Below are positions 324 to 26,375 of a stretch of DNA of 38,587 bases, piece after piece. Source of the stretch: Clostridia bacterium (lineage in GTDB: Bacteria; Bacillota; Clostridia; Christensenellales; Aristaeellaceae); contig JAFRNK010000008.1 of NCBI GenBank assembly GCA_017430225.1, forward strand, positions 1 to 38,587. The letters run 5' to 3'. The first letter of the stretch is position 1. Each line of letters opens with the position of its first letter. The notes under the pieces are model-generated. The model was not told the origin of the DNA. It saw only the letters and a list, made by a program, of their open reading frames with translations, and ran no database searches. The position numbers and the translations under genes are program-made.

Positions 324-344
324 GTGGTCGCAACAGGACTCGAA
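324..344. repeat. attL core, copy of tRNA-Val 3' end
   Basis: Identical over 21 bp to 8531-8551, which is the 3' acceptor and T-arm part of tRNA-Val. Identity stops at 345 (t) versus 8552 (c). This is the attachment site copy left after site-specific recombination. Confidence 0.9.
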
Positions 345-449
345 TTCGATGGATGTCAATTTTTGGCACATATTTGGATTTTTGGAAACATTGATGGCAC
401 AATCGTTTCCGGTACTTGAAACATGTGGAGACATGCTCGGAAATGCTCG

Positions 450-482
450 AATTGTGGTCAAAATTATGGTCAATTGTGGTCA
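450..482. repeat. Arm-type repeats AATTRTGGTCA, left cluster (3 copies)
   Basis: Three copies of AATTRTGGTCA start at 450, 462 and 472, i.e. about one helical turn apart. Two more copies lie at 8445 and 8457 near the other end. Position inside both ends and spacing suggest integrase arm-binding sites. The rest of 345-666 shows no convincing gene, only terminators for the leftward genes. Confidence 0.6.
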
Positions 483-531
483 GGCTTTCATGCAGTATCT
501 GGTTCTCTTTTTATACATGGGCAGAAGAAAA

Positions 532-553
532 GGATCAGCATGTTCACTGATCC
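532..553 (-). terminator. Possible back-up terminator of leftward cargo operon
   Basis: GGATCAG/CTGATCC stem with an 8-nt loop. On the minus strand it is followed by TTTTCTTCT. It lies about 130 bp downstream of the stop at 683. Confidence 0.4.
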
Positions 554-666
554 CATCATATCAAAAAAGAGGACGCTATCATAGGTGTTGTCCCAGATAA
601 TGAATCTGAGTTCACGCCTCCTGCATCCTCATATAAAGTATAGACGAAATCACATGGTAAGTCAAC

Positions 667-692
667 TAAAAAGGCGACCTTCTCAGGTCACC
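667..692 (-). terminator. Terminator overlapping stop of 78-aa gene
   Basis: On the minus strand GGTGACCT-gaga-AGGTCGCC is followed by TTTTTA. The stem overlaps the stop codon of the leftward 78-residue gene. Confidence 0.7.
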
Positions 693-919
693 TCAGAATG
701 TATAAGTGGTTTCTTTCCTATTCTGCCCCTTACCGTTGCCCTGTGTCCTCTGACGAATCCTGCCTGATATGCTGTGACTACTGCCTCATATACCATGTTT
801 GGATTCCTTGTGCGGAAAAACTCGTCGAGCAGTTCTTTAAGTTCATTCACGGATAGATCATAGGTGATTGGCATTTTCTTATTTGCTTCAGCTGCTAACT
901 TTTTGATACTGCTTTTCAT
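683..919 (-). CDS. Small hypothetical protein of the element
   Basis: 78 residues, basic, with an N-terminal MKSSIKKLAAEANKK stretch and a helical middle (VNELKELLDEFF). I recognise no family. The start is well supported by AGGAG six bases upstream of ATG. It begins 9 bp after the stop of the 104-residue gene and so is the second gene of a two-gene leftward operon. A terminator overlaps its stop codon. It occupies the accessory end of the element next to attL, where satellites usually carry cargo. No membrane segment or cysteine motif is visible. Confidence 0.6.
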   Translation of the reverse strand: MKSSIKKLAAEANKKMPITYDLSVNELKELLDEFFRTRNPNMVYEAVVTAYQAGFVRGHRATVRGRIGKKPLIHSEVT

Positions 920-928
920 ATCTGTCTC

Positions 929-1243
929 CTATTCTGTCTGACTCAGGGTGAAGAATCGTGCCTTGTAGATCGCACCGTCGCCTTTGCTGCCGTAGATCAG
1001 GTCGACACCGAATACTGCCTTGCTGCCGTGGATCACTTCTCGTCCAATGGCTTTCCAGCCTGACCATGTGTTGACAGCTTCGACGATGCCTGCAGCTGCT
1101 TTCGCTGCTTCGATGCGTGCTGCATTCACTGTCTCAGCTTTTGCACACAGCCATGCGCGGTGAAGTGCTTCGCTGAAACTGATAAGATGTTTCCGGAAGA
1201 TCACCCATGCGCTGCTCATGATCCTGCTGAGATTCCACTTCAA
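929..1243 (-). CDS. Small phage/ICE-type hypothetical protein
   Basis: 104 residues starting at TTG. The start is chosen because a strong purine-rich site (GGAAGGGGG) lies about ten bases upstream; an internal ATG (MSSAW) has no comparable site. The N-terminal pattern (MKWNLSRIM, then EALHRAWLCAKAE) resembles short proteins common in mobile elements of Firmicutes, function unknown. It is the first gene of a leftward pair, behind a leader of nearly 300 nt and a TTGATA-17-TATACT promoter. No catalytic motif is visible. Confidence 0.6.
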   Translation of the reverse strand: MKWNLSRIMSSAWVIFRKHLISFSEALHRAWLCAKAETVNAARIEAAKAAAGIVEAVNTWSGWKAIGREVIHGSKAVFGVDLIYGSKGDGAIYKARFFTLSQTE

Positions 1244-1537
1244 TGCTCCATCCCCCTTCCTAAAAATGGTGGGCTGTATCGTCGCCCTGCACGCCTGTTC
1301 TTTTCTCAGGTGTCAACCCGTCTCATTCCGTGTCCGTCACCGCTGTTCTCGGTTCGCAGGTTTCCGGCTGTCTTTTCCAGCTGTCACCTCGTGTCGTGAT
1401 GGCTCCGGCGGTTCGGTGCGAGTGGCGGTGGGCTTTTTGTTACCATCGGACTTCCTGCCGTGGAGCTTTTCTCCAAATCCCGTTCCGCTCTTGTCTTGCC
1501 GTCTCATTCCGACCTTGACTCGCGCTTCCCTTACCGT
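1244..1537 (-). promoter_or_regulatory. Long untranslated leader of leftward cargo operon
   Basis: About 290 nt lie between the predicted start of transcription (near 1537) and the TTG start at 1243. No open frame with a start and ribosome site is apparent on either strand. The minus strand contains GGAATGAGACGG twice (near 1499-1510 and 1318-1329). Function unknown. Confidence 0.4.
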
Positions 1538-1543
1538 GACTAT

Positions 1544-1572
1544 AGTATAGCATATCTGTACATATATATCAA
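1544..1572 (-). promoter_or_regulatory. Promoter for the leftward cargo operon
   Basis: On the minus strand TTGATA (1567-1572) and TATACT (1544-1549) are separated by exactly 17 bp. It diverges from the ribbon-helix-helix promoter, and one TGTACA site (1557-1562) lies inside its spacer. Confidence 0.65.
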
Positions 1573-1632
1573 TATGTCATACCCAACAAATATTGTACAG
1601 ATATATTGTGCAATATGTATAATTGTACAATT
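1557..1632. promoter_or_regulatory. Cluster of TGTRCA operator-like sites
   Basis: TGTACA or TGTGCA occurs at 1557, 1594, 1607 and 1624. Two are embedded in longer palindromes: ATATTGTGCAATAT (1603-1616, one mismatch) and AATTGTACAATT (1621-1632, perfect). They lie between and within the divergent promoters of the RHH gene and the cargo operon. Autoregulation by the RHH protein is an inference. Confidence 0.5.
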
Positions 1633-1651
1633 ATATGTGTTATGCTATAAT
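1623..1651 (+). promoter_or_regulatory. Promoter of the RHH gene
   Basis: TTGTAC (1623-1628), 17-bp spacer, TATAAT (1646-1651), just upstream of the ribosome site AGGGGG at 1661. The perfect palindrome AATTGTACAATT overlaps the -35 box. Confidence 0.65.
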
Positions 1652-1672
1652 TTTCTGTGAAGGGGGTAGTGT

Positions 1673-1903
1673 ATGATGGCAACTACTAAAGCACAGATTC
1701 GAGCTACTAACAAGTATATGGCAAAAGCCTATGATTCTTTGCGTATCATTGTTCCTAAGGGGCGAAAATTGACCGTAGAGACTTATGCTCGTGAACATGG
1801 GCAATCTGTCAACGGCTTAGTTAATGAATTGTTGGCTGCTGCTATCGGAATTGAGAAGGATAGCTGGAAACTGCCAATGCCGGAAGGACGTGAAGCAGAA
1901 TGA
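1673..1903 (+). CDS. Arc/ribbon-helix-helix-type small DNA-binding protein
   Basis: 76 residues. Residues about 25-60 (RIIVPKGRK, then a helix-turn-helix-like VNGLVNELLAAAIG) have the short strand plus two helices typical of Arc/MetJ ribbon-helix-helix proteins. These dimerise and bind palindromes. AGGGGG precedes two tandem ATGs (1673 and 1676); either can be used. The gene overlaps the following 55-codon frame by ATGA, so the two are probably co-translated. Four TGTRCA sites in the upstream region are candidate operators. It could be an antitoxin-like regulator or simply the element's accessory-region repressor. Confidence 0.75.
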   Translation: MMATTKAQIRATNKYMAKAYDSLRIIVPKGRKLTVETYAREHGQSVNGLVNELLAAAIGIEKDSWKLPMPEGREAE

Positions 1904-2067
1904 CAGAAGAACAACAGAAAGAATTCGAGAAAGAGCTAAGCGAATTGACAGAGGAGTTAAAAGGACAATTACAGGGTCCACCGCGGTACGTCTTAACAGG
2001 AGAAATTATTCCTGAAGAAAGCCTAAAACGGAACTACAAAAATGAAGATCAACTTCACAGTCACTGA
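1900..2067 (+). CDS. Small acidic partner of the RHH protein
   Basis: 55 codons, ATG overlapping the upstream stop as ATGA. The N-terminal half is strongly charged and helical (MTEEQQKEFEKELSELTEEL); the rest (residues 26-36) includes GPPRYVLTGEI. No family is recognised. The tight overlap with the DNA-binding gene and the presence of a full start and stop argue that it is real. A toxin or a co-regulator role is possible, but nothing in the sequence proves either. Its length is below usual gene-calling cutoffs. Confidence 0.55.
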   Translation: MTEEQQKEFEKELSELTEELKGQLQGPPRYVLTGEIIPEESLKRNYKNEDQLHSH

Positions 2068-2078
2068 TGTCTTACGGC

Positions 2079-2178
2079 TTGACAGTCTTGATAACATCGT
2101 CTATACTCATAGTTGAAGGCGTAGGAGGCGTATGATCAGATTTATCTGGTGCTGCACTTATGATTGCGCCTTCTTTTT
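2079..2178 (+). ncRNA. Small RNA gene (about 65 nt) with consensus promoter
   Basis: TTGACA (2079-2084), 17 bp, TATACT (2102-2107) predicts transcription from about 2113. From 2115 GAAGGCG pairs with CGCCTTC (2167-2173) and is followed by TTTTT, an intrinsic terminator. The RNA is therefore about 60-66 nt, essentially a closed hairpin with an inner CAGAT/ATCTG helix. No reading frame with a start is apparent. Family not recognised; an antisense or protein-binding regulatory RNA is conceivable. Confidence 0.6.
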
Positions 2179-2181
2179 ATA

Positions 2182-2211
2182 TTGACAATGCCTGACTGCT
2201 TCGCTTATACT
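2182..2211 (+). promoter_or_regulatory. Promoter of the large structured RNA
   Basis: TTGACA (2182-2187), 18-bp spacer, TATACT (2206-2211). Predicted start near 2218-2220, 40 bp after the preceding small RNA terminator. Confidence 0.7.
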
Positions 2212-2218
2212 AATAAGC

Positions 2219-2577
2219 GGACCATCTGAGCTTGTGCTATTGGGCAATTGGAGCCTCTTACCGACAAGCCGGATGACTTCAAAGAAGCAAGTGATGTGCG
2301 CCGGGTAAACTCAGTTTCAGCTGACCCCCGGCAAGAGGCCTGGCTTGCTTCTAAACAGGAGATGTGTCCGCACGCCTGGCACCAGTATTGGTGCCCGCCT
2401 GCGGGGGTTACCGCTCCTGTTCTGAAGGGGCCAAAGGCATGACTGGGTTACCAGCAACTGCGAGGCGTTTAGCGCTTGCAACCCCTTCACAAAGATAAGA
2501 GTGTTCGATTTCGGACTCGGACCTTGCTCTATATTGGGACAAGCCGAGTGGGCCGAAGTCGGGCACTCTTTCTTTTG
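2219..2577 (+). ncRNA. Large structured RNA, about 360 nt, family unknown
   Basis: It begins after a consensus promoter and ends in a terminator hairpin (AGAGTG 2498-2503 with CACTCT 2564-2569, then TTCTTTT). Visible helices are: GCCTCTT 2253-2259 with AAGAGGC 2333-2339; GAAGCAAG 2284-2291 with CTTGCTTC 2344-2351, which crosses the previous helix and so forms a pseudoknot; GCCGGG 2300-2305 with CCCGGC 2327-2332; CAGGAG 2356-2361 with CTCCTG 2414-2419; the perfect GGCACCA-gtat-TGGTGCC hairpin at 2378-2395; GAAGGGG 2424-2430 with CCCCTTC 2482-2488 enclosing CTGG-gtta-CCAG. No protein frame is convincing. It is not tmRNA, RNase P, 6S or SRP by any motif I can see. Confidence 0.7.
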
Positions 2578-2705
2578 TAGAAGTATGCCCTCTGGCATTT
2601 GCATTTTAAGGGGCTTTCCTGCGTTTCCAGCTGAGAGCAGTAGTGTTTATACGGCTCATGCTTCAGAAACGATTTTAGATCTCGCAGAATTGAAAATAGA
2701 GGGTA

Positions 2706-3179
2706 TTATTCCTCGCTGCACTGATCCGGCATGATAACTACACCGGACTGTTCAATGCTCGGTTCCGTGTTATCCGGATAGATGGTTTTCAGCACACATG
2801 CCACGTCACGCAGCGCGCCGACCATGTTCCGCAATGCTCTTGTATCGACTTTCTTGAACCGCAGCTCACTTTTACCGATGACATAGTTGTATAGTGCAGC
2901 ATCATCGGTCATGCAGTTGTTCAGCAGCGCAATTGCTTTATTCGTCGCGGTCATAATATCATCAATCGCGCGTGCATCTTTCTGACCCATATTCGATAAT
3001 ACCTTTTTCAATACGGTTCTTTTATACTCTGCCCGTTCTTCTGTATATCTATCCGCTTTCGCGTGCTTCTTCAACGTATCAATGGGTATCTGGACTTCAG
3101 CTGCTAATTCCTGCAGGCTCATATCACCTGTTACATATTGGAGCTTTATTTTCGTCCAGTCATATTTTGTTTTTCCCAT
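2706..3179 (-). CDS. Terminase small subunit-like protein
   Basis: 157 residues. The N-terminal helix-turn-helix (YDWTKIKLQYVTG, then LQELAAEVQIPIDTLKKHAK, about residues 5-42) is the pattern seen in phage small terminases and related DNA-recognition proteins. A charged helical segment follows. GAGGTGG precedes the ATG, and the gene overlaps the upstream 83-residue frame by 34 bp. It is the last gene of the leftward operon, and no large terminase follows. A satellite TerS that redirects a helper phage's packaging would sit here. The family call rests on motif appearance only; a generic HTH protein is possible. Confidence 0.5.
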   Translation of the reverse strand: MGKTKYDWTKIKLQYVTGDMSLQELAAEVQIPIDTLKKHAKADRYTEERAEYKRTVLKKVLSNMGQKDARAIDDIMTATNKAIALLNNCMTDDAALYNYVIGKSELRFKKVDTRALRNMVGALRDVACVLKTIYPDNTEPSIEQSGVVIMPDQCSEE

Positions 3180-3397
3180 GGCTCCACCTCATATACTTTA
3201 ATCAGCTTCTCAGCATAAGGACACAAGCACCATTTGTATTGATCGCAATAATTCCGCTTGTGCCATAATGCCGTGACTTGTGTGTCAAATGCGAATACCT
3301 GACGCGCTCTGTGTATCCGGCTTTCACATTGTATTTCATAACCTTCATAATGCTCATAAAACGGACAGATAGCCCTTGCATTCTCGGTCAAATTCAT
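3146..3397 (-). CDS. Cysteine-rich small phage protein
   Basis: 83 residues with five cysteines (about positions 12, 24, 50, 57, 59) and a CPFYEHYEGYEIQCE start that is familiar from small proteins in clostridial phages. A metal-binding fold is plausible. No clear ribosome site precedes the ATG; it starts 15 bp after the stop of the upstream gene, so it may depend on coupled translation. Function unknown. Confidence 0.6.
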   Translation of the reverse strand: MNLTENARAICPFYEHYEGYEIQCESRIHRARQVFAFDTQVTALWHKRNYCDQYKWCLCPYAEKLIKVYEVEPWEKQNMTGRK

Positions 3398-3412
3398 AGT
3401 GTCATTTGTGCG

Positions 3413-3874
3413 TTATTTGTGCCGTTTCGCACAGTCGGCACACAGCACAGAACCAAAGCGGTTCTTCGTATATTCTGCGACTTTCGCAGCAGTCATATCA
3501 CCAGCTGCGGTGATCCGCTTTCCGCAGCACTCGCAAATGCCGGATACCTTTTCCAGCTTGATCCTCACAGCATCGACCTGGTCACCGAATGCGCTGACCT
3601 TCTTAACCACGAGCGCGATATTCAGACCAGACCATTCCTCAATATACGGCGTGCCAGCCAGCTTCTCGATCATCTTTGCGTTTGTATGGTTCAGGATCAT
3701 GGGCTTTAAGTCCTTCTGCCGGAAGTACAGCACCATGCAATCCGACTTCCTGCCCTCAGCTGCGGTGACTGTCTCCTCGGTGACCTTGTCAATAGTGGCA
3801 AGTTTCTCCTCACCACGTTCGAAAGCGTATGATCCTAAATAATCCGGATTAGTCAGCTTTTTCCAGTGTGTCAT
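3413..3874 (-). CDS. Phage protein with C-terminal zinc-ribbon-like motif
   Basis: 153 residues. The N-terminal three quarters (MTHWKKLTNPDYLGSYAFE, and PYIEEWSG near residue 76) match a conserved phage protein usually found near recombination nucleases. The C-terminus carries CECC near residue 114 and CADC near residue 146, a four-cysteine zinc-binding arrangement. It follows the RecE-like nuclease gene by 6 bp in one operon, so a recombination or single-strand-DNA role is likely, but the exact function is not known to me. Confidence 0.6.
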   Translation of the reverse strand: MTHWKKLTNPDYLGSYAFERGEEKLATIDKVTEETVTAAEGRKSDCMVLYFRQKDLKPMILNHTNAKMIEKLAGTPYIEEWSGLNIALVVKKVSAFGDQVDAVRIKLEKVSGICECCGKRITAAGDMTAAKVAEYTKNRFGSVLCADCAKRHK

Positions 3875-3880
3875 ATATGC

Positions 3881-4654
3881 TTACTCCTCATCTATCGCCC
3901 ATGCCGGAACATCAAGCTCGTCAGTCTGGTAGCCAGGCCAATCATCGGTATCAATACAATGCTTTAGTTTATCCATCAGTTGCCAACGTGTATAAGCACC
4001 TAATTCCAGAAACTGCTCGGATGCTTTGAAAACATGTACTGCATACGGCGGTTTCTTCTCGATTGCGATGAAGTACCAGTCAGGTCGGTTTCCTGTCACC
4101 GCTTCGATGCCATCCAGATAGTGCGCTGCCTGCACATGGTATCCGTAACTGATAGCATCGCGCTGAAATGCCCGTGTGCTGCAGTCCGTTGTGGTTTTCA
4201 GGTCGATCACGGCAGCAGCTGAGAATGCGTCGACTCTGCACTTGCATGGAAGTCCGGTTTCCTTATCCATCCAGAATAGTGCTTCTTCTCTGCTGGTGTT
4301 ACTGATCAGTGATTTTGCTGTTTTATCCATCCTGAATGCGTGGAGCATTCCGCGAATCTGCTGCATCTCACTACGAGACAGAATGACTGCATCCTCGTCC
4401 TGATCCCTGAGCCAGTTCTTATACAGTTCCTTCCCACCTTTAGTCCGTACATCTACATCCGGTGCTTCGACGTATGACGCTTTGAAAATCTCTGGTGTCA
4501 GGATCGCTGCATGTACCGCGCGACCTAACCGCAGTGATGGTGTATCCTCTGACGGATTATTGAGCGCGTACTGATAATGCGCTGGACTTTTCCGGATTTC
4601 CCATAAGGTACTTTTATTGATCCCGTGAGCTGCTCGGTATTCAGCTTCAGTCAT
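3881..4654 (-). CDS. RecE-like PD-(D/E)XK exonuclease
   Basis: 257 residues from the ATG at 4654, chosen because GGAGAAGG lies just upstream; a longer frame to 4780 would run through the upstream gene. It shows LRLGRAVHAAILTPE, then CKCRVDAFSAAAVIDLKTTTDCS (core D and D-x-K residues) and YGYHVQAAHYLDG. These are hallmarks of phage RecE/lambda-exonuclease-type PD-(D/E)XK nucleases that resect double-stranded DNA for annealing-based recombination. The gene overlaps the DUF5681-like gene by 8 bp. A RecT-type annealing protein is not recognisable next to it. Confidence 0.8.
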   Translation of the reverse strand: MTEAEYRAAHGINKSTLWEIRKSPAHYQYALNNPSEDTPSLRLGRAVHAAILTPEIFKASYVEAPDVDVRTKGGKELYKNWLRDQDEDAVILSRSEMQQIRGMLHAFRMDKTAKSLISNTSREEALFWMDKETGLPCKCRVDAFSAAAVIDLKTTTDCSTRAFQRDAISYGYHVQAAHYLDGIEAVTGNRPDWYFIAIEKKPPYAVHVFKASEQFLELGAYTRWQLMDKLKHCIDTDDWPGYQTDELDVPAWAIDEE

Positions 4655-4973
4655 GATCCTTCTCCTCGGCTGCTGCCCATACTTCTTCGAGTAAACGGTC
4701 GAGCTTTTCCATAGTACCCATTTCCTGATCAGAAACTGTGACCGTAGGCTTTCCAAACGTTCGATCAAGTATGATCTCAATGGCTTTCAGTTTTGCTGAT
4801 GCGCTGGTGTCAGGAGATTCCAGCATGATTTCCAGCTGCTCGACTGCCAACGGTGTTAGTTGCCGGATCGCTTCGAGTGCGTCACGCTGTGCGACTGTCA
4901 GTGCAGGTCGACCACTCGGATTCCCTGATGATCCTTTGCAAAACTGACCTGTTTTTTCCCTGTTAGCAGGCAT
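4647..4973 (-). CDS. DUF5681-like small phage protein
   Basis: 108 residues. The N-terminal GNPSGRPALTVAQRDALEAIR segment, with its GNPSGRP signature, is typical of DUF5681 proteins of phages and mobile elements. A helical middle and acidic C-terminus follow. The ATG at 4973 has GAGGTG six bases upstream; an upstream GTG (4982) has its purines too close. It overlaps both neighbours slightly, so it is inside a tightly packed operon. The biochemical role of the family is unknown to me. Confidence 0.7.
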   Translation of the reverse strand: MPANREKTGQFCKGSSGNPSGRPALTVAQRDALEAIRQLTPLAVEQLEIMLESPDTSASAKLKAIEIILDRTFGKPTVTVSDQEMGTMEKLDRLLEEVWAAAEEKDHD

Positions 4974-5295
4974 GGGGATCACCTCTTTCGTAAAGTTTCA
5001 GCCAATCTTCCAATAACATGGTTACATGCCAGTCCTCGCAGTTGCGTCGGTGAAAGACGGCTGGCAGTCCGTCATTGAATCGCTCTGAATCCCTGATCGA
5101 CTGAGCCATTGCATCATGCAGCTTCAAGTGTTCAGTTCGCTTCACTTCGATATGAACATCTGGTAAACCGACTACATCCGGAATACTGCCATACGTTTGT
5201 GAACCACCGCGCCGTACTGAATACCCATGCCGTTGAAGGATGTCAACCAGTTCACGTTCTCCGGCTGCACCTTTGCGCTGAGACTGTCTACCCAT
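4963..5295 (-). CDS. Hjc-type Holliday junction resolvase/PD-(D/E)XK nuclease
   Basis: 110 residues. GERE (about 13-16), PDVVGLPD (about 39-46) and HIEVKR (about 48-53) supply the Glu, Asp and E-x-K residues of the archaeal-Hjc-like nuclease fold. Length is normal for the phage version. Its ATG overlaps the replication gene's stop as TAATG. It probably resolves recombination or replication intermediates of the element. Confidence 0.8.
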   Translation of the reverse strand: MGRQSQRKGAAGERELVDILQRHGYSVRRGGSQTYGSIPDVVGLPDVHIEVKRTEHLKLHDAMAQSIRDSERFNDGLPAVFHRRNCEDWHVTMLLEDWLKLYERGDPHAC

Positions 5296-5957
5296 TATCG
5301 TATACCTCTCAGATACTCGATAAACTTTTCATCATTATTGAGTCGCTCGATAAGCCCCTCTAAAGAGCTCCTTCCCTTTTCTTCGTTGAGAGCGGTAATA
5401 ACTTTAAAATTAGAGCATGAAATACCTTTTTCACTTGCGATATTAATAGCATCTCTCATGGTGAAAGAGTGGGTTCCCTCTCGGGGCTCTCCTTCCTGAT
5501 CTTGACTGGGCTCTACTGGGCTTTTTAAACTGGGCTCTACTGGGCTAAGCTTTACTATGCTCCGATCTGTCGCCGTATTGGTTCCATCTTGGATACAGTA
5601 TGGTTCCATATTGGAAACAATCTCGATCCTACGGTCTTTATTTACGAAAGTCTGGGCAAATTCTGTCTGAAACTTTGTAGGATGATATCGGTCTTTCTTC
5701 AGTTCGTTATTGATATTCCAGTCGAGTATTACGATGACTCCGCTGTCAAACCGATAGATGAAATCATGGTCGATCAGCTCTTGTATCTCTTTTTCTCCGG
5801 TTCGCGACAATAGTTCCGGCAAAGCTGAGTCACTCTGAAAACCATCATCGTCTGCACTCATGGACAAATAGAAATACAAGCATTTTGCACCGTGTGATAG
5901 ATTGAGGAATTTGCCTTTGCAGGTTATCTGTTTTGAGAACATGCGTTTTTCAGCCAC
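5295..5957 (-). CDS. DnaD/replisome-organiser-type replication protein
   Basis: 220 residues from a GTG at 5957 preceded by GGGGTGG; a TTG 45 bp further upstream has no ribosome site. The N-terminus (VAEKRMFSKQI, then LYFYLSMSADDDGFQ, ELIDHDFIYRF) is the winged-helix module of phage replication organisers. A Ser/Pro/Glu-rich linker follows, with SPVEPSLKSPVEPS repeated, and then a short helical C-terminus. The start of the operon's replication module fits this role. Origin binding would most likely be within or near this gene; no clear iteron set was seen. Confidence 0.7.
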   Translation of the reverse strand: MAEKRMFSKQITCKGKFLNLSHGAKCLYFYLSMSADDDGFQSDSALPELLSRTGEKEIQELIDHDFIYRFDSGVIVILDWNINNELKKDRYHPTKFQTEFAQTFVNKDRRIEIVSNMEPYCIQDGTNTATDRSIVKLSPVEPSLKSPVEPSQDQEGEPREGTHSFTMRDAINIASEKGISCSNFKVITALNEEKGRSSLEGLIERLNNDEKFIEYLRGIR

Positions 5958-6086
5958 GTGATCACCACCCCTGGCTTTCAATAGCCGTGATAATTCCTTC
6001 AAGGATGACCAGAAGCGAAAGCCCCTGTCCCTCCAACCGCTGCGCGAATATTATCTCGTGGCACACATGCTGACGTTTACCGACGG

Positions 6087-6287
6087 TCACGATGCCACCG
6101 CCTTTTCAGCCTGCCGACTGAGCCAATCGTCGAATTCACGAATCGGGATCAGTACACGCCGACCGACGCGAATGTGGGGGAGAGGATCATCCTGTCTCCG
6201 GATCAGTGCGTCGAGCGTGATAAGACCGATACCCATGGTTTCTGCTGTTTCCTCACGCGAGAATACACGCTTGACTGTTTCGCTCAT
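6087..6287 (-). CDS. Excisionase/AlpA-type HTH protein
   Basis: 66 residues with a MerR-like winged helix. FSREETAETMGIGLITLDALIRR is the helix-turn-helix, followed by PHIRVGRRVLIPIREFDDWL, the signature of excisionase and AlpA-type proteins. It overlaps the Cro-like gene's stop. Expected roles are excision together with the integrase and/or activation of the leftward operon. The 129 bp between it and the replication gene hold no clear gene. Confidence 0.8.
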   Translation of the reverse strand: MSETVKRVFSREETAETMGIGLITLDALIRRQDDPLPHIRVGRRVLIPIREFDDWLSRQAEKAVAS

Positions 6288-6469
6288 CGTGATACTCTCC
6301 TCTCTCCAATCTCCTTGATGATGTCCAGAATACGGTTCTTCTCATCTTCTGGTAGCTCTCGACGTAATTTGCGTGAAAAGTTGCCGTCTGTGATTCCTAG
6401 CTTTTCAGCAATCTCCCAGAGACGAACACCTGCTCCGGCTGCTTTGAGCTTGATTTCTTGGTTGGTCAT
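6284..6469 (-). CDS. Cro-like HTH regulator
   Basis: 61 residues from the ATG at 6469 with AAGGAG seven bases upstream. A longer frame to 6496 lacks a site. IKLKAAGAGVRLWEIAEKLG then ITDGNFSRKLRREL is a lambda-repressor-like helix-turn-helix, a common first gene of the early operon in Gram-positive phages. It is divergent from the CI-like repressor, with the two promoters overlapping in between. Confidence 0.75.
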   Translation of the reverse strand: MTNQEIKLKAAGAGVRLWEIAEKLGITDGNFSRKLRRELPEDEKNRILDIIKEIGERRVSR

Positions 6470-6489
6470 GAAATTCTCCTTTCTAGTGC

Positions 6490-6518
6490 TTGACAAACTC
6501 GGCTTGTAGCACTACAAT
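6490..6518 (+). promoter_or_regulatory. Rightward promoter of the repressor-integrase operon
   Basis: TTGACA (6490-6495), 17-bp spacer, TACAAT (6513-6518). Its -10 box is one half of the palindrome CTACAATcATTGTAG (6512-6526). Confidence 0.75.
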
Positions 6519-6519
6519 C

Positions 6520-6548
6520 ATTGTAGACAACAACAAGAAAGTTGTCAA
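6520..6548 (-). promoter_or_regulatory. Leftward promoter of the early operon
   Basis: On the minus strand TTGACA (6543-6548), 17-bp spacer, TACAAT (6520-6525). It faces the rightward promoter with only one base between the two -10 boxes. A GACAAC/GTTGTC inverted repeat lies in the spacer and -35 zone and may be an operator. Confidence 0.75.
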
Positions 6549-6621
6549 CACGTATTCAATTAATGACGCAAGAAATCAACAAGTGTGTATTTATACAAAA
6601 ATGAAAGAGGAGATAAGCTAC

Positions 6622-7209
6622 ATGGAGAAAAAGAAAGTCAAGCCAGGCAGAATACCAGAATTTAAAAAGAGGTTCAATGAATTATCTGAAGCTTATGAAA
6701 ACCGAGCTGCTTTTGCAGACATGCTTGGACTATCCAGACAATCTGTAAACTTCTGGCTGAATGGCGATCGTACACCTGATGCAGAAAGCTTACGAATTAT
6801 TGCAAATAAGCTTCATGTTAGCATCGACTGGCTACTCGGAATCCCGGGAGCATTAAGGAATCCTGATCCAGATGTACAAGCTGCTGTTTCATATACTGGT
6901 CTATCTGAAAAAGCAATTGAGAATCTTCATTTTTTAACAAATCTGAATGATAGACGAGTCGTACCAGCTTTAAACTATGTAATGACTAATAACCTCCCGT
7001 ATCTGTTAGGAACATTAGCCATGATTTCAGATTATTGTGAAACTGTTGATAAGTATAAATCAGTTGAATTTGAGAAACTTGAAGAATTCAGAAACAGGGA
7101 AGATATAGATGGGAGTGTTATCTTGTCGCCATTCAACACAATTAGGTACTACAAGTTGGCAGCACAAGAAGCTTTTGCTAAATTAATTGAAAAAGAAGGT
7201 GATTCCTAA
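6622..7209 (+). CDS. CI-like phage repressor
   Basis: 195 residues from the ATG at 6622, preceded by AGAGGAG; an upstream in-frame ATG at 6601 overlaps that site. The N-terminal lambda-repressor HTH (FKKRFNELSEAYENRAAFADMLG, then LSRQSVNFWLNGDRTPDAES and LHVSIDWLLG) is clear over residues about 10-75. The C-terminal half is helical, with no S24 protease Ser/Lys motif visible, so induction by RecA-type autocleavage is not evident. An antirepressor would be needed instead, as in PICIs. It overlaps the integrase start as TAATG. Confidence 0.8.
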   Translation: MEKKKVKPGRIPEFKKRFNELSEAYENRAAFADMLGLSRQSVNFWLNGDRTPDAESLRIIANKLHVSIDWLLGIPGALRNPDPDVQAAVSYTGLSEKAIENLHFLTNLNDRRVVPALNYVMTNNLPYLLGTLAMISDYCETVDKYKSVEFEKLEEFRNREDIDGSVILSPFNTIRYYKLAAQEAFAKLIEKEGDS

Positions 7210-8393
7210 TGGCACGTGGACGCGCTGCTAATGGCTCCGGACTGCAACCTCGTAAGCGTGCTGACGGTCGGTGGGAAGTGCGGTTTTCAAGTGGCATAAA
7301 TCCTAAGACGGGCAAGGCAAAGCAAAAGTCCATCTATGGCAAAACCTCACAGGAAGTGGCAGAGAAGCTGAGGAAAGCCACGTCTGAGGTTGACTCCGGC
7401 GACTATCTTGATCCCACGAAAATGAAAGTCAGGGAATGGTTGAATACATGGAAAACCACCTATTGTCAATCTATTAAACATGCAACACTAATCCAGTATG
7501 AAGGGTATATCAAGAATTATCTGATACCTAATCTCGGCGGTGTAGCACTTAATAAGCTGACTCCCATGCTCGTGCAAGATATGCTTAATAAGCTGGCAAA
7601 ACCTGGAAAACAGGGAAAGAAAGCACTGGCATATAAAACAATCAAGAACATTCATGGCTGTTTATCCACCTCGCTAAAAAAGGCGGTTGAGCTGCACTAT
7701 CTGAAGAATAATCCGGCGACAGGGTGTAGCATACCACGGGGGAATAATGCAGCTGACACAAAGCAAGTCCATCCGTTTACGCCTGATGAAGTGCATGATT
7801 TTATGAAGTACGCTGACGAGAGTAAATACCATGCGATCTACTTCATGGCACTAAATACGGGAATGAGGTTGTCAGAAATCCTCGGTCTCAGATGGTCAAG
7901 GATCAACTTCAAAACGGGTAGGATCACGGTTGATGCACAGCTGCTGATCCCGCGCGAAAAAGGTGAAAACAGATCACTTGGTCAGACAAAGAACCGGAAA
8001 GCGCGCTCTTTCAAAGTTGCTGAACAAGTGACAAATGAATTGATGAATATCCGCAAGCTGCAACTTCAGGCACGTTTACAAGCTGGTTCGGCATGGAATA
8101 ACGACGATGATCTTGTTTTCACTAATGAAATTGGTGGTTCCATACCCCATAGCACGATTGAGAGCGATTTCCAGAGGTTGACAAAACGGTCTGGGATCAC
8201 GAACCATCGTTTTCATGATCTCCGGCATACGTTCGCAACAGAAGCACTCAGGCATGGAGCAGACGCAAAGACAATCTCAGAAGCACTCGGTCACTATTCA
8301 GTTGGATTTACGCTTGACGTATACGCGCATGTCTCTGAGGAAATGGCAGACAATTTCGCAGCACTCATGTCGACGATCATTTCCGAAAGATAA
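7209..8393 (+). CDS. int: Tyrosine-recombinase integrase
   Basis: 394 residues, full length for phage/ICE integrases. The order is an N-terminal arm-binding beta domain (about 1-60), a SAM-like core-binding domain (about 70-175) and a catalytic domain. Visible catalytic residues are R220 (NTGMRLSE), H336 and R339 (HDLRH), H362 (LGHYS) and nucleophile Y372 (LDVYAHV). It is translated by TAATG coupling to the repressor gene and ends 137 bp from attR. It should recombine the tRNA-Val 21-bp core. Confidence 0.95.
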   Translation: MARGRAANGSGLQPRKRADGRWEVRFSSGINPKTGKAKQKSIYGKTSQEVAEKLRKATSEVDSGDYLDPTKMKVREWLNTWKTTYCQSIKHATLIQYEGYIKNYLIPNLGGVALNKLTPMLVQDMLNKLAKPGKQGKKALAYKTIKNIHGCLSTSLKKAVELHYLKNNPATGCSIPRGNNAADTKQVHPFTPDEVHDFMKYADESKYHAIYFMALNTGMRLSEILGLRWSRINFKTGRITVDAQLLIPREKGENRSLGQTKNRKARSFKVAEQVTNELMNIRKLQLQARLQAGSAWNNDDDLVFTNEIGGSIPHSTIESDFQRLTKRSGITNHRFHDLRHTFATEALRHGADAKTISEALGHYSVGFTLDVYAHVSEEMADNFAALMSTIISER

Positions 8394-8405
8394 TAATAAC
8401 AAAAG

Positions 8406-8439
8406 CGGTTGGAGGGACATCCCCCCAACCGTCTTTTTT
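8406..8439 (+). terminator. Terminator of the repressor-integrase operon
   Basis: CGGTTGG (8406-8412) pairs with CCAACCG (8425-8431), with inner GGG/CCC, followed by TCTTTTTT. It lies just downstream of the integrase stop. Confidence 0.85.
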
Positions 8440-8444
8440 AGTTG

Positions 8445-8467
8445 AATTGTGGTCAAAATTGTGGTCA
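8445..8467. repeat. Arm-type repeats AATTGTGGTCA, right cluster (2 copies)
   Basis: Copies start at 8445 and 8457, with a partial AAGTGGTC directly after. They match the three left-end copies at 450-482. Candidate integrase arm sites. Confidence 0.6.
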
Positions 8468-8497
8468 AGTGGTCTTTTTTTGCCCTTCAAAAACGAA

Positions 8498-8525
8498 GAA
8501 AGTCTCTGATTTCACAGAGACTTTC
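8498..8525 (-). terminator. tRNA-Val terminator supplied by the element
   Basis: An 11-bp perfect stem (GAAAGTCTCTG with CAGAGACTTTC) is followed on the minus strand by TTCGTTTTTG. It lies 7 bp past the tRNA 3' end and inside the element, so it replaces the original terminator now found at 289-319. Confidence 0.8.
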
Positions 8526-8530
8526 GCCGA

Positions 8531-8551
8531 GTGGTCGCAACAGGACTCGAA
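8531..8551. repeat. attR core within tRNA-Val
   Basis: 21-bp copy of 324-344 formed by the tRNA 3' acceptor and T-arm. The tRNA remains intact because the element carries this stretch. Confidence 0.9.
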
Positions 8552-8604
8552 CCTGTGACCCCATCGATGTGAACGATGTGCTCTACCAACTGAGCCATGC
8601 GACC
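8532..8604 (-). tRNA. tRNA-Val (anticodon CAC)
   Basis: 73 nt without encoded CCA. The acceptor stem is GGTCGCA/TGCGACC, the D-stem GCTC/GAGC and the anticodon stem CATCG/CGATG with loop TTCACAT, giving anticodon CAC (reads GTG). The T-arm is ACAGG-TTCGAGT-CCTGT. The discriminator base is A. Its 3' part is the attachment site of the element to the left. Confidence 0.95.
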
Positions 8605-8646
8605 TTATCTATCCATACGGCTTTCCGGAAAAGGTACCAGTAGGTA

Positions 8647-8668
8647 CTACCAACTGAGCCATGCGACC
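8647..8668 (-). pseudogene. tRNA-Val 5' fragment
   Basis: 22 nt identical to the first 22 nt of tRNA-Val (8583-8604), in the same orientation and 64 bp upstream of it. After this point the sequence becomes a GGTACC-rich stretch, not a tRNA. It is probably a remnant of a former tandem tRNA copy. Confidence 0.75.
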
Positions 8669-8672
8669 ATAT

Positions 8673-8846
8673 ATGTTATCCGATTTCTGGGCTTGGCGGC
8701 CCGTGTCACATCCACGGACACCCATCGCATCGGTTGAGCGACAGTGTTTCGGGGTTTGAGCCCCGGAATAACATGCTACTCTATGTGATCCGGATTTCTG
8801 GGCTTGCGGTCCGTGCCATGTCCACGGGCACCCATCGCACCGGTTT
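8673..8846 (-). ncRNA. tRNA-Val leader with two foldable repeats
   Basis: Two units of about 63 nt (8673-8735 and 8783-8846) are about 85% identical. Each can fold as an outer CCGR/YCGG helix, a TGGG/CCCA helix and an inner GTGYC/GRCAC helix. Two positions change in a compensatory way: A8683-T8730 becomes G8793-C8840, and T8706-A8718 becomes C8816-G8828. Both lie between the leftward promoter at 8876-8904 and the tRNA, so they should be transcribed as its leader. The linker holds a GGGG/CCCC hairpin. Alternatively they are spacer repeats of a decayed tRNA array. Confidence 0.55.
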
Positions 8847-8875
8847 CGCGGGCGGCTTTTTTCAACCGCCGAAAT

Positions 8876-16654: not shown

Positions 16655-18016
16655 ATGAAAAAGGTACTCGCTCTGGTATTGGCCGCGATGATGCTGGTTG
16701 GCTGCATGAGCTTCGCCAGCGCCGACGGCGAGAAGATCAAGCTGGTCGTTTGGTCCTTCACCAACGAACTGCAGGGCATGATCGAGAAGTATTATCTCCC
16801 GAATCATCCCGAACTCGAGATCGAATTCCAGATCTATCCGACTGACGGCCATGCCTATCAGGATAAGGTCGACAACCTGCTGGGCTCCAACGCAACCAGC
16901 GACGAAGCTCCCGACATCTTCACCCTGGAAGCTGCGTTCGTGAAGCACTATGTCGAAATGGACTGGACCGGCGACCTGAAGAGCATCGGCTTCACCGATG
17001 AAGAACTCTCCACCGCTTTCCCGGTCATGGCTCAGATCGGCCAGAATGCTGCCGGCGTCCAGAAGGGCCTGTCCTGGCAGTCCACCCCCGGCGTTCTCAT
17101 GTATCGTGCTTCCCTGGCTGAGAAGTATCTGGGCATCACCTCCCCTGAAGAATTCCAGGCGAAGGTTGCGGATTGGGATGCTTTCCTCGAGACCGCTGAA
17201 GAGCTGAAGGAAAAGTCTGAAGGCGCCTGCAAGATGGTCACCGGCTCCGGCGACATCTGGAACGCTTATCAGTATCAGCGCAGCGAGGGCTGGGTTGTTG
17301 ATGGCAAGCTGGTCATCGACGACGAACTCCTCGACTACGAAGAACTGTGCAAGACCCTCGAGCAGGATGACCTGTCTCAGAAGGGCGGCGCCTGGCAGGA
17401 AATCTGGTTCGCCGGTATGCGCGGTGAAAACGAGACCCTGTGCTACTTCCTGCCCACCTGGGGTCTGCATTACACTCTGAAGCCCAACTGCGTGGCCGGC
17501 TGGGATGCTGAGAACCCCGACAGCGAAGAGAACATCAAGAACGCTACCGAAAACGGCACCTATGGCGACTGGCGCCTGGTTGACGGCCCTGTGGCCTACA
17601 GCTGGGGCGGCACCTGGATGGGCATCAACGCCGCGAAGGCCGCTACTGCGGACGACGCCAAGAAGGCCGCTATGCACGACCTGATCTACAACTTCTCCCT
17701 GAATGAAGACTGGCTGGTCCAGTATGCTAAGGACTCCGGTGACTTCGTCGGCTCTGCCAAGGCTGTGGAAACCATCCTCGCCAACGGCGGCACCCCGAAC
17801 CCCTTCCTGGGCGGCCAGGATCACTATGCCATCTTCGCGAATGCTGCGGCGCTGGCCAACGGCTCCCTGATGAGCGAATATGACTCTGACATCAACGATC
17901 TGTGGGACAAGTACGTGACCCAGCCCTACACCAAGGGCGAGAAGGGCCTCGACGAGTGCCTGCAGGACTTCAAGGATCAGGTCAAGGCTACCATCACGAC
18001 CATCACCGTGGAGTAA
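16655..18016 (+). CDS. Sugar ABC transporter substrate-binding protein 1
   Basis: 453 residues, family 1 extracellular solute-binding protein of the CUT1 class. A 20-odd-residue signal peptide contains LVGC (14-17), a lipobox-like cysteine, so it may be a lipoprotein; ASA-D is an alternative signal peptidase I site. KLVVWSFTNELQGMIEKYY, PDIFTLEAAFVKHY and YSWGGTWMGINAAKAA match carbohydrate binders. AAGGAGG precedes the ATG. Codons are strongly C-ending, as expected of a highly expressed gene. It heads operon 1, followed by two permeases. The substrate cannot be read from sequence. Confidence 0.9.
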   Translation: MKKVLALVLAAMMLVGCMSFASADGEKIKLVVWSFTNELQGMIEKYYLPNHPELEIEFQIYPTDGHAYQDKVDNLLGSNATSDEAPDIFTLEAAFVKHYVEMDWTGDLKSIGFTDEELSTAFPVMAQIGQNAAGVQKGLSWQSTPGVLMYRASLAEKYLGITSPEEFQAKVADWDAFLETAEELKEKSEGACKMVTGSGDIWNAYQYQRSEGWVVDGKLVIDDELLDYEELCKTLEQDDLSQKGGAWQEIWFAGMRGENETLCYFLPTWGLHYTLKPNCVAGWDAENPDSEENIKNATENGTYGDWRLVDGPVAYSWGGTWMGINAAKAATADDAKKAAMHDLIYNFSLNEDWLVQYAKDSGDFVGSAKAVETILANGGTPNPFLGGQDHYAIFANAAALANGSLMSEYDSDINDLWDKYVTQPYTKGEKGLDECLQDFKDQVKATITTITVE

Positions 18017-18050
18017 TCTGTAGAATCTGATTCTGACGGAGATACCTTTT

Positions 18051-18087
18051 GGGGCTGTCTCTTGCCAATGAGGCAGGGGACAGCCCC
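18051..18087 (+). terminator. Hairpin 1 after binding protein 1
   Basis: GGGGCTGTC pairs with GACAGCCCC around an inner stem, 35 bp after the stop codon. Only a weak T tract follows, so partial termination or mRNA protection is likelier than a full stop, because the permeases follow. Confidence 0.55.
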
Positions 18088-18108
18088 TTCCGGTGAATCC
18101 TGCAGAAC

Positions 18109-18164
18109 AAGGAATGAGGAGTGGAAAGGATTGTACCGAACGTCCTTTTCAGTCCTCATTCCTT
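18109..18164 (+). other. Perfect 12-bp intercistronic stem-loop
   Basis: AAGGAATGAGGA (18109-18120) pairs perfectly with TCCTCATTCCTT (18153-18164), with an inner AAAGGA/TCCTTT helix. Second hairpin between binding protein and permease. Probably sets the expression ratio or stabilises the upstream mRNA. Confidence 0.6.
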
Positions 18165-18206
18165 GCATCGAGCGGGAATGTTTATCACAAGCAAAGGGGT
18201 GGATTT

Positions 18207-19173: not shown

Positions 19174-20655
19174 ATGAAAAAGACACGCAAAATCATCTTC
19201 GTGGTGTTCATATTGATCGCCATCGCCGCCATGTTCCTCCCTGTCGCTACTTTCAATGACAATTCTTCCGCTTCCATGGCTGCGGATATTGAGAAACAGC
19301 AGGGCAAGGTAGACAGTGCCCAGACCCAGCTGGACCGCTGGATCGCCGGCGGCAAAAAGAGCGAAGCTGATATCCAGAAACAGCGCGATAAAGTCGCGAA
19401 GGAAAAGGAGAAGCTCGACGCGCTGCTTGCCGAACAGGCGGCCGCCAGCAGTGAAAAGGGCGCCGGCCTCTCATACGCTTTCCTGCCTGGGCAGCTGCCT
19501 TCTGAGCTTGAAATCGATATGCAGGTCGTCAACCAATACAAACTGTATAACTGGAACTTCCCGGTTTATTACGGCTGTATCTGGGCTGCGTTTGCTGCGT
19601 TTGTCATTGCGCTCGTGCTGGTGCTTGCTGCAGGAAACAAAGACGCCAGCGTGCTTTACACTATCTCTTCCATCTGCCACCTGGTGGGTATCATCCTTGC
19701 ATTCTATGCCATTCTGCGGCTGGCGGCTTTCCCGATCAAGCTGCCCTACGGCAACGCGGAACTGAAAGCGCCTGTGATTGCCTTGCTGATGGGCGGCGCG
19801 ATCATCTCTTTCGTCGCACATGTCCAAGGCGTGCATAACTCCAAGCGCACCATGGTTTATGTGTTCTGCTCGTTCCTGAGTCTGCTGGCCATCGTGCCAT
19901 TCTGGATCATGATCGTCAACGCGACCCGCTCCAGCCAGGCCATCCAGCAGGGCGTCAGCCTGATTCCCGGCACTTACCTGCGCTATAACTGGAACGTGCT
20001 GGCTTCCAAGAACTTCAATATCGCGATCGGTTTCAAGAACAGCGCGATCATCGCCTTCGGCTCGACCATCCTGAGCGTTTACTTCTCAGCCATGACGGCC
20101 TACGGCTTCAAGGTATACCAGTTCAAGGGCAACAAATTCCTGTACGCGGTGGTCATGGCCATCATCATGATCCCCGGCCAGGTCACCGGTACCGGCTTCT
20201 TCATGTTCATGTATCAGATCGGCCTGGTCGATAACCGCCTGGCGCTGATCATCCCCTCCATCGCGGCGGCGTCCACGGTCTTCTTCTTCAGGCAGTATCT
20301 GGAGGCGAACCTGCAGCTTTCGCTGGTCGAGGCTGCACGTATCGACGGCTGCGGCGAGTTCCGTACCTTCAATAATATCATCCTGCCGATCATGGTCCCG
20401 GCCATGGCGACCATGGGCATCATGGCTGTCATCGGCAGTTGGAACAACTACCTGACCCCCCTGATGCTGTTCACCAAGCCCGGCCTGAAGACCCTGCCCA
20501 TGATGGTCCAGGAACTGCGCGGCGATATCTACCGCACAGAGTACGGCTCCATCTACCTGGGCTTGACCCTGACCGCGCTGCCGCTGATCATCGTGTACTT
20601 CGCGTTCAGCAAGTACATCATCGCCGGTGTCGCGCTCGGCGGCGTCAAGGAATAA
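19174..20655 (+). CDS. Sugar ABC permease 1b (MalG type), extended N-terminus
   Basis: 493 residues versus about 280 for the family. The extra N-terminus has a membrane segment (about 7-25), a Lys/Gln/Glu-rich coiled coil predicted outside the membrane (about 36-90) and three further hydrophobic segments (about 133-153, 160-185, 198-217). The canonical permease begins near residue 228 and includes the EAA loop (EAARIDGCGEF, about 386). GAGAGGAG precedes the ATG, one base after the partner permease's stop. There is no internal ribosome site at the canonical start, so this is a fusion or extension, not a mis-called start. The extension's function is unknown. Confidence 0.9.
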   Translation: MKKTRKIIFVVFILIAIAAMFLPVATFNDNSSASMAADIEKQQGKVDSAQTQLDRWIAGGKKSEADIQKQRDKVAKEKEKLDALLAEQAAASSEKGAGLSYAFLPGQLPSELEIDMQVVNQYKLYNWNFPVYYGCIWAAFAAFVIALVLVLAAGNKDASVLYTISSICHLVGIILAFYAILRLAAFPIKLPYGNAELKAPVIALLMGGAIISFVAHVQGVHNSKRTMVYVFCSFLSLLAIVPFWIMIVNATRSSQAIQQGVSLIPGTYLRYNWNVLASKNFNIAIGFKNSAIIAFGSTILSVYFSAMTAYGFKVYQFKGNKFLYAVVMAIIMIPGQVTGTGFFMFMYQIGLVDNRLALIIPSIAAASTVFFFRQYLEANLQLSLVEAARIDGCGEFRTFNNIILPIMVPAMATMGIMAVIGSWNNYLTPLMLFTKPGLKTLPMMVQELRGDIYRTEYGSIYLGLTLTALPLIIVYFAFSKYIIAGVALGGVKE

Positions 20656-20677
20656 TCCGCATCATACTTCACAAACG

Positions 20678-20696
20678 GGGTTGTTGCACAACCCCT
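20678..20696 (+). terminator. Hairpin after operon 1
   Basis: GGGGTTG (20677-20683) pairs with CAACCCC (20689-20695), followed by TTCG. It lacks a long T tract. Confidence 0.4.
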
Positions 20697-20725
20697 TCGA
20701 TCAAATGGATACTCCATTTGATCGA
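20697..20725. repeat. Perfect 13-bp palindrome with 3-nt loop
   Basis: TCGATCAAATGGA (20697-20709) and TCCATTTGATCGA (20713-20725) are exact inverted copies around TAC. It immediately precedes the 197-bp repeat element. Confidence 0.7.
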
Positions 20726-20733
20726 CAGAACAC

Positions 20734-20930
20734 CTTTTCCTCTCGCACCTACGGTGCTCCCGGGCGGAAAAGGTGCAAGGAAAGCATTCTTGCTCTCGCA
20801 GGGCAAACTCTGCTCCGCAAAAATGCTCCTCGCACCGCACATGTCGCTGCTGCGGATTATATTTGGAGGGGCTGCGGCCCCTCCAAACCTCCCGGAGTTT
20901 TCTGATTGCCTGACACTCTTTGTTGCACAA
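20734..20930 (+). repeat. 197-bp structured repeat, copy 1
   Basis: About 92% identical to the inverted copy at 38391-38587; the first 165 bp differ at only about five positions. It contains the palindrome TTGGAGGGGC-tgcg-GCCCCTCCAA (20863-20886) and a GCAAAAATGC/GCATT-TTGC pair. No stable reading frame is preserved between copies. Probably a non-autonomous mobile or REP-like element. Confidence 0.85.
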
Positions 20931-20965
20931 TCTCTTTGGAAAAACAATACACCTGTAAAAAGAGG

Positions 20966-26096: not shown

Positions 26097-26153
26097 GGGT
26101 CAGGCATAGTCATTCATCATAAGAAAAAGGAACTGTTGTACAAGATATTGAAC

Positions 26154-26345
26154 GCCCTCATCCGTCACGCCTGCGGCATGACACCTTCCCCCGAGAGCGG
26201 GGGAAGGCTCTCGCTTGACCTGTGCCGGAATGCTGAATCCTTCAGACGCATTTACAGAATGGTTTGTCAAATTTGTGAGAGCAGAGAAAAGCCTTCCCCC
26301 GATTTCGGGGGAAGGTGGCCGAATGAAGCGAGGTCGGATGAGGGC
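26154..26345. repeat. MITE-like palindromic element
   Basis: Terminal inverted repeats of 11 bp (GCCCTCATCCG, 26154-26164; CGGATGAGGGC, 26335-26345). Inside are two CCTTCCCCC/GGGGGAAGG hairpins (26184-26207 and 26292-26315) with different 6-nt loops. No gene is inside. It lies between the convergent GH13 and GH2 genes, where it can also act as a transcription barrier. The motif resembles repeats common in gut clostridia. Confidence 0.7.
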
Positions 26346-26375
26346 TGTTTTGCTGATGCGCAACAGTCCTTTTTT
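26342..26375 (+). terminator. Terminator downstream of operon 2
   Basis: GGGCTGTT (26342-26349) pairs with AACAGTCC (26362-26369, one G-U), then TTTTTT. Confidence 0.7.

Follow-up and report, generated by a model that had tools for sequence, protein, structure and literature searches.

A noncoding RNA of about 360 nt is probably encoded at 2219-2577, on the plus strand of a PICI-like phage satellite, and it matches no Rfam family. The explanation favoured here, with a probability of about 0.45, is a standalone noncoding RNA gene of the satellite, which is one of three promoted RNAs and acts in trans. The parts of this explanation differ in strength. From the sequence, transcription of 2219-2577 into a folded RNA seems quite likely; by analogy with other satellites, this RNA could possibly act in trans on the helper or the host. 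The main reading is supported by the promoters, the z-score of the fold, the strand bias, the pair changes between the small RNAs A and B, the satellite context, and the precedent of PLE. It is weakened because no homologue was found, because the minus strand of the core folds nearly as well, and because some windows of the host flank fold better. The large RNA is considered a lead and not yet a new class, and its pseudoknot is suggestive. All positions refer to the window, which is the whole stretch of 38,587 nt that was analysed.

The satellite-like element and its genes

A 21-bp direct repeat, identical at 324-344 and 8531-8551, bounds an 8.2-kb element (324-8551). Its main features are:

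324-344: left attachment repeat (21 bp, the 3' end of tRNA-Val), identical to 8531-8551
1673-1903, plus strand: small ORF 5' of the RNAs, weakly Arc-like (phrog_13890, of unknown function, E 5e-10; Arc-like repressor phrog_582, E 0.0098)
2706-3179, minus strand: TerS-like gene, convergent with the large RNA (phrog_1206 terminase small subunit, E 7.7e-8)
7209-8393, plus strand: tyrosine integrase (Phage_integrase, E 2.1e-30)
8531-8551: right attachment repeat, within the intact tRNA-Val gene (from the repeat match and the tRNA call)
8531-8604, minus strand: tRNA-Val gene, the integration site and the only tRNA gene concerned

The element also contains genes for a CI-like repressor, an excisionase-like protein, a DnaD-like helicase loader, a RusA/Hjc-like resolvase, and an exonuclease VIII-like nuclease. 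No match to capsid, portal, tail, TerL, or other structural families was identified among the 15 element ORFs scanned. The features of a PICI-like satellite were found together: an integrase with attachment repeats at a tRNA gene, genes for replication and for redirecting packaging (DnaD-like, exonuclease VIII-like, RusA-like, and TerS-like), and no structural gene. The closest relative found for the TerS is 33% identical and lies directly 5' of an ORF whose translation is TerL-like, at a locus that looks like a prophage in another genus of the same family. No second TerS-like match was found in the own genome (82% complete) at E 0.001. Because of the attachment repeats, the gene set, and the prophage setting of the nearest TerS relative, the element can fairly be read as a phage satellite of the PICI-like kind. 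Carriage on a mobile element or phage satellite had been proposed from the sequence alone, and it is borne out by the repeats, the integrase, the TerS-like gene, and the lack of structural genes. The PADLOC and NCBIfam scans (10 ORFs each) showed no defence gene, and weak repressor-like matches to the CI-like protein only.

Several other observations were made in and beside the element. The ORFs at 929-1243 (minus strand) and 1673-1903 (plus strand) form a divergent pair. The first encodes a very conserved protein of 104 aa (phrog_28198, function unassigned), whose relatives at 53-73% identity occur at 32 genome loci, mostly of the Clostridia type; 16 of these 32 loci also have a match to the 1673-1903 ORF nearby. 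The cargo outside this pair differs among the loci. Two face-to-face near-consensus promoters (11/12 each) are located at 6490-6548. Since the TTG codon listed as the start of the repressor ORF lies at these promoters, the ORF probably begins further downstream. A 26-bp piece of the tRNA-Val gene is repeated beside the gene (8583-8608 and 8647-8672), and two 69-bp repeats (75% identical) follow at 8672-8850. These repeats are perhaps the remains of earlier insertions.

Promoter and coding potential of the large RNA

2182-2211, plus strand: promoter of the large RNA, TTGACA-18-TATACT, 11/12 consensus positions
2219-2577, plus strand: putative large structured noncoding RNA, about 360 nt, with the start inferred from the -10 hexamer and the end from the U-rich tail

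Promoter sites with at least 11/12 consensus positions and a spacing of 16-18 nt are rare, with only six on both strands of the 38.6-kb window. Two of these six best promoters precede small RNA A and the large RNA. Both promoter-hairpin units lie between a pair of small ORFs (1673-2067, plus strand) and the convergent terS. Four ORFs tested across 2219-2577 gave no convincing family (best E 0.1 in Pfam and 0.28 in PHROGs); the 77-aa ORF at 2501-2734 has none. No same-strand gene with a convincing family follows the large RNA, and the next gene, terS, is convergent. Because of this arrangement, a cis-acting leader or riboswitch appears unlikely; the riboswitch was dropped as a candidate for want of a downstream gene.

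Predicted structure of the large RNA

The core (2219-2489) contains 12 Watson-Crick helices of at least 6 bp, with outer ends within 140 nt. Seven of the 12 are compatible, with 6-9 bp each and outer pairs 2230/2269, 2253/2339, 2283/2352, 2300/2332, 2354/2421, 2378/2395, and 2423/2489. Among these seven coexisting helices, 2253/2339 joins as a pseudoknot. The predicted domains, all on the plus strand, are:

2223-2275: P1 hairpin (2223-2228/2270-2275 and 2230-2235/2264-2269) with a 28-nt loop; pair probabilities 0.8-1.0
2283-2352: P2, 9 Watson-Crick pairs, enclosing P3 (2300-2305/2327-2332) and an apical hairpin (2311-2315/2320-2324)
2354-2421: second domain, P4 (8 bp) with inner helices 2368-2372/2400-2404 and 2378-2384/2389-2395; pair probabilities 0.78-1.0
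2423-2489: third domain, P6 (2423-2429/2483-2489) closing the hairpins 2443-2446/2451-2454 and 2459-2466/2472-2480
2491-2577: 3' hairpin, lower stem 2497-2514/2553-2570 and an upper stem, A-rich before and U-rich after

The pair probabilities of the third domain range over 0.52-1.0, and are lowest at the tip of the last hairpin. The lower stem of the 3' hairpin has 18 pairs, including 3 G-U and no A-C. Because of its A-rich and U-rich flanks and its position between convergent units, the 3' hairpin is likely a two-way terminator between the large RNA and the convergent terS operon, rather than a part of an ornate fold.

The sequence-only reading had described an unassigned structured RNA with an independent promoter, its own terminator, and at least seven helices of 6-8 bp. 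These points agree with the analysis. The promoter is among the six best sites of the window; a terminator-like 3' hairpin with a U-rich tail is present, and is likely two-way; the seven compatible helices have 6-9 Watson-Crick pairs. The RNA is apparently noncoding, has no Rfam match, and folds with a z-score of -7.11.

The putative small RNAs A and B

2079-2107, plus strand: promoter of small RNA A, TTGACA-17-TATACT, 11/12 consensus positions
2115-2178, plus strand: small RNA A, about 65 nt, a hairpin with a U-tract end, just 5' of the large RNA; z -3.34 (2114-2181)
564-631, minus strand: small RNA B, a paralogue of A lying towards the element's left end; z -3.43 (555-640)
637-665, minus strand: promoter of small RNA B, TTGACT-17-TATACT, 10/12 consensus positions

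The A and B copies lie 1.5 kb apart and are 73% identical over 85 nt, including the -10 region. They share the 17-nt promoter spacing, the U-tract end, and the same fold, and both retain two partly unpaired words, AGGAGGCGU and UAUGAU. The shared structure has 19 pairs: three are changed on both sides, four on one side, 12 are unchanged, and none is broken. When the structure was slid by 1-3 columns as a control, 39-66% of cells were paired, with no double change. A column shuffle, which has little power with two sequences, matched the covariation in 57 of 500 cases. More weight can be given to the slid control, although the structure was drawn from the same two sequences. A covariance model of the small RNA (R3) found no copy besides the two known ones, either in the own genome or in 92 sources (1.09 Mb). 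Pairing between the small RNAs and the large RNA was equalled in strength by 39/100 and 79/100 shuffles. Overall, A and B are apparently paralogous hairpin RNAs with their own promoters and terminators, and the element seems to carry three separately promoted noncoding RNAs. The small RNA pair is better supported than the large RNA.

Fold strength of the large RNA compared with chance

The full stretch 2219-2577 has a minimum free energy of -167.6 kcal/mol and a z-score of -7.11, and none of 100 shuffles was as good. Much of this z-score is owed to the 3' hairpin. Without the hairpin, the core folds with z -3.74 on the plus strand (0/200 shuffles as good) and z -3.41 on the minus strand (1/200). 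The core was also ranked against 2840 windows of 271 nt from both strands of the window, with dinucleotide correction, and was placed in the best 1.7% for the plus strand and 3.8% for the minus strand. The best local 200-nt window (2401-2600) has a dinucleotide-corrected z-score of -3.96, compared with -3.34 for the tRNA-gene window. The core fold is not exceptional for the 38.6-kb window.

A hairpin-rich spacer without selected function, consisting of a terminator and a host-type palindromic intergenic repeat, is a somewhat unlikely alternative to an RNA gene. Inverted-repeat windows of the host flank (26110-26380, 17902-18172, and 20629-20899) outscore the core, one such repeat recurs in the window (20734-20931 and 38390-38587, 92% identical), and no relative that keeps 2219-2577 was found. 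Against the spacer stand a dedicated promoter, a single genome copy by blastn, and the helix content of the core. Six core helices of at least 7 bp were found versus 1.7 expected, a count reached by 0.35% of shuffles; the count of 12 helices of at least 6 bp was reached by 3.4%. The host-flank repeat at 20734-20931 is 198 bp long, recurs inverted at the window end (38587-38390), and contains internal inverted repeats.

The core might also work as DNA, as a hairpin-rich site beside terS for replication or packaging (origin, pac, or cos) with an incidental promoter. The two strands of the core fold about equally, the stretch adjoins terS, and satellites require such sites. Against this, no direct-repeat family of at least 14 nt occurs in the stretch, which argues against iterons at that sensitivity. 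Two tandem near-consensus promoters, each before a hairpin with a U-rich tail, also point away from a DNA site, as does the excess of G-U pairs over A-C mismatches in the helices (7 vs 2). A DNA element is rather improbable on this evidence. The plus-over-minus difference in folding is z -2.4 for the full length, -2.0 for the 3' hairpin alone, and -1.1 for the core alone, which is weak; much of the strand preference seen at full length comes from the 3' hairpin. Because of the G-U excess and the better plus-strand fold, a plus-strand RNA is mildly favoured.

The proposed loop-loop pseudoknot

2253-2259, plus strand: 5' arm GCCUCUU, in the P1 loop, forming 7 Watson-Crick pairs with 2333-2339
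2333-2339, plus strand: 3' arm AAGAGGC, between P3 and the 3' strand of P2

The two arms are perfectly complementary, and their pairing crosses both P1 and P2. The 3' arm follows directly after P3 and could stack on it. Crossing helices of at least 7 and at least 8 bp occurred in 10.1% of 2000 dinucleotide shuffles. Given the helix skeleton, a 7-bp Watson-Crick loop-loop match was obtained in 2.7% of 3000 cases (p 0.027), in a test that was devised after the structure had been seen. Freeing the arms costs 8.0 kcal/mol and the duplex yields -9.6 kcal/mol, with the knot penalty and coaxial stacking not included; the pseudoknot is nearly neutral in computed energy. The claim that the helices 2253-2259/2333-2339 and 2284-2291/2344-2351 cross is upheld, since both are present with perfect Watson-Crick pairing. 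The claim of a pseudoknotted structure stands in part: the crossing pairing is there, but a tenth of the shuffles also cross and the energy is near neutral. In the model, the pseudoknot 2253-2259/2333-2339 is plausible.

Homologues and known RNA families

Homologues of the large RNA were searched by sequence and by structure. By blastn, 2200-2600 gave a single copy in the own genome (itself), and no relative in the phage and plasmid records. The BLASTN check suggested for clostridial genomes was run on 308 genomes of the family, and returned only the own genome and one 34-nt match in G012. This match lies inside a 657-aa open frame, and its surroundings fold barely beyond shuffles (z -1.02); it was rejected as chance.

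Two covariance models were built from the single sequence, R1 for the 5' domain and R2 for domains two and three. R1 was searched against sets of 396 order genomes and 391 class genomes, counts that include the own genome, and beyond the own genome it gave one weak match in each set. These matches, in G079 (E 0.0023) and G1031 (E 0.0022), are at about chance level over so many genomes and were rejected; the first breaks several pairs, and the second skips about 55 model positions including P3. R2, run over the 308 family genomes, hit the own genome alone, where it also matched the minus strand of the locus less strongly. Strict filters, which can lose weak matches, were applied in the genome scans, and the order and class genomes are samples.

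Relatives of the satellite were sought through the phrog_21613 protein (12 loci) and the 929-1243 protein (32 genome loci). The TerS matched 22 of the 308 family genomes, own included, and seven further regions were fetched. The integrase matched 70 of 285 genomes at E 1e-60, own included, and 40 regions were fetched. Over the fetched loci, R1 (20, 1, 32, 4, and 40 sources) and R2 (52 and 40 sources) matched nothing except the window and the two weak places in G079 and G1031. Another 21 loci were examined with R3 and blastn only. By blastn, the loci of the satellite routes contained no large RNA apart from the window's own loci. In IMG/VR (2.9 million viral contigs), three exact patterns gave 0, 1, and 2 stretches in a scan that requires exact words, and R1 found nothing in these stretches; the TerS, the small Arc-like ORF, and the integrase had no relative there. 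The large RNA is an orphan within what was searched.

The proposed comparison with Rfam was carried out, and assigned the RNA to no known family: no match was found in 2219-2577 at gathering scores. Up to E 10, there were four weak matches in 1900-2900, of which none was inside 2219-2577 and none was to ROOL, GOLLD, raiA, OLE, HEARO, RNase P, tmRNA, or group I or II introns. Models of all of these are presumably in the Rfam library. No tmRNA was detected by ARAGORN.

A small ornate RNA of the ROOL, GOLLD, or raiA sort, with a compact tertiary fold or an RNA assembly centred on the loop-loop pseudoknot, is quite doubtful. The crossing helices are present, the loop-loop pairing is rarer than chance given the skeleton by the post hoc test, and such RNAs are found on phages (PMC12286853). 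The knot, however, is near neutral and crossing helices are common in shuffles; there is also no Rfam match, no homologue, and a length below that of ROOL and GOLLD. A complexity near that of ROOL, GOLLD, or raiA had been suggested from the sequence, and is not sustained by these results, with a fold that is unexceptional in the window. It is very improbable that the stretch is a decayed gene, or a unit of the type I toxin-antitoxin or antisense kind. A relative by integrase and small Arc-like ORF (L122) carries, downstream of the latter, a pair of repeats with hairpins and small hydrophobic ORFs, and another locus (L047) holds a diverged copy of this repeat, but none of the four ORFs tested here rose above noise and the large RNA has no antisense partner in the element beyond chance.

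These two loci have features of their own. Each L122 repeat, downstream of the homologue of 1673-1903, has a hairpin next to an ORF of 27 codons, whose hydrophobic peptide product has a basic tail; the repeats look like type I toxin units by sequence. In L047, a promoter-like site, a structured stretch, and a terminator-like hairpin lie at 4816-4630 (minus strand), after a PemK-like ORF and downstream of an Arc-like ORF (labels from reading). Rfam gave no match on L047 except a tRNA.

Possible mode of action

Of six comparisons that sought antisense targets in the element, five gave complementary stretches that shuffled queries equalled. The remaining one, with small RNA A (1/60 shuffles as good), matched the antisense strand of the integrase gene, which is not a leader. 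An antisense action on the element's own genes was dropped, as the complementarity in the element is not beyond chance. Because a leader is unlikely and no antisense target beyond chance was found in the element (with this one possible exception), an action in trans on the helper or host is suggested.

For the RNA gene of the satellite, the following course is proposed. The main sigma factor of the host would initiate the large RNA at about 2218. The body of about 270 nt would fold into three domains, and the two-way terminator hairpin would end the transcript. Together with the two paralogous 65-nt RNAs, the large RNA would give the satellite three RNAs under separate promoters, and the integrated state is the most likely time of their synthesis. 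These RNAs may pair with or bind molecules of the helper phage or host in trans, like SviR of PLE. The role in helper-phage interaction or element maintenance that was suggested from the sequence is reasonable by analogy. A stronger version is unlikely, in which the 360-nt RNA is pseudoknotted, represents a new class, and forms a dedicated RNA module with the two 65-nt paralogues, acting in trans against or in tune with the helper.

A satellite that places two of the window's six best promoters before noncoding RNAs might be a simple place to study the effects of RNA on helper phages. The value of the large RNA hinges on finding relatives; the small RNA pair already gives a first comparative test of structure.

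Comparison with known systems

Some known classes were dropped from the comparison by gene content. No reverse transcriptase match was found among the 15 ORFs, so a retron or DRT RNA was rejected; an IscB or TnpB guide RNA was rejected since no such protein matched. No RNA of like kind on PICI-like satellites of gut Clostridia was described in the literature searched, of which the coverage was partial.

ROOL and GOLLD RNAs are similar to the large RNA as phage-borne noncoding RNAs with complex predicted structures. However, they are much longer. One ROOL has 659 nt and many GOLLDs exceed 800 nt, and RNAs of this type occur on phages, often near tRNA islands (PMC12286853). The length from promoter to U-rich tail is here about 360 nt, below the roughly 600 nt or more of ROOL and GOLLD, and the sole tRNA gene concerned is the integration site. 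The raiA motif (205 nt) and a HEARO RNA (343 nt) are in a similar size class (PMC12286853). They differ in that the large RNA has no Rfam match, and no IsrB- or IscB-like partner was found among the 15 ORFs scanned.

The small RNAs A and B are similar in size to the CI RNA of P4. The likeness is that of short structured RNAs of satellites or phages. The P4 CI RNA and its relatives in P1, P7, N15, and PhiR73 are complementary to gene leaders (PMC7567579), whereas no leader complementarity stood out here.

The closest precedent for action in trans might be found in PLE. In each PLE, a noncoding RNA is the most abundant transcript, and the IIR transcript has antisense homology to the leaders of PLE genes (PMC7567579). 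IIR thus differs from the RNAs described here, which showed no convincing antisense match within the element. SviR of the PLE satellite is reported to bind helper-phage transcripts (PMC12987554). IIR and SviR are assumed here to be one RNA. The large RNA is like them in being a satellite-borne noncoding RNA with a presumed transcript of its own.
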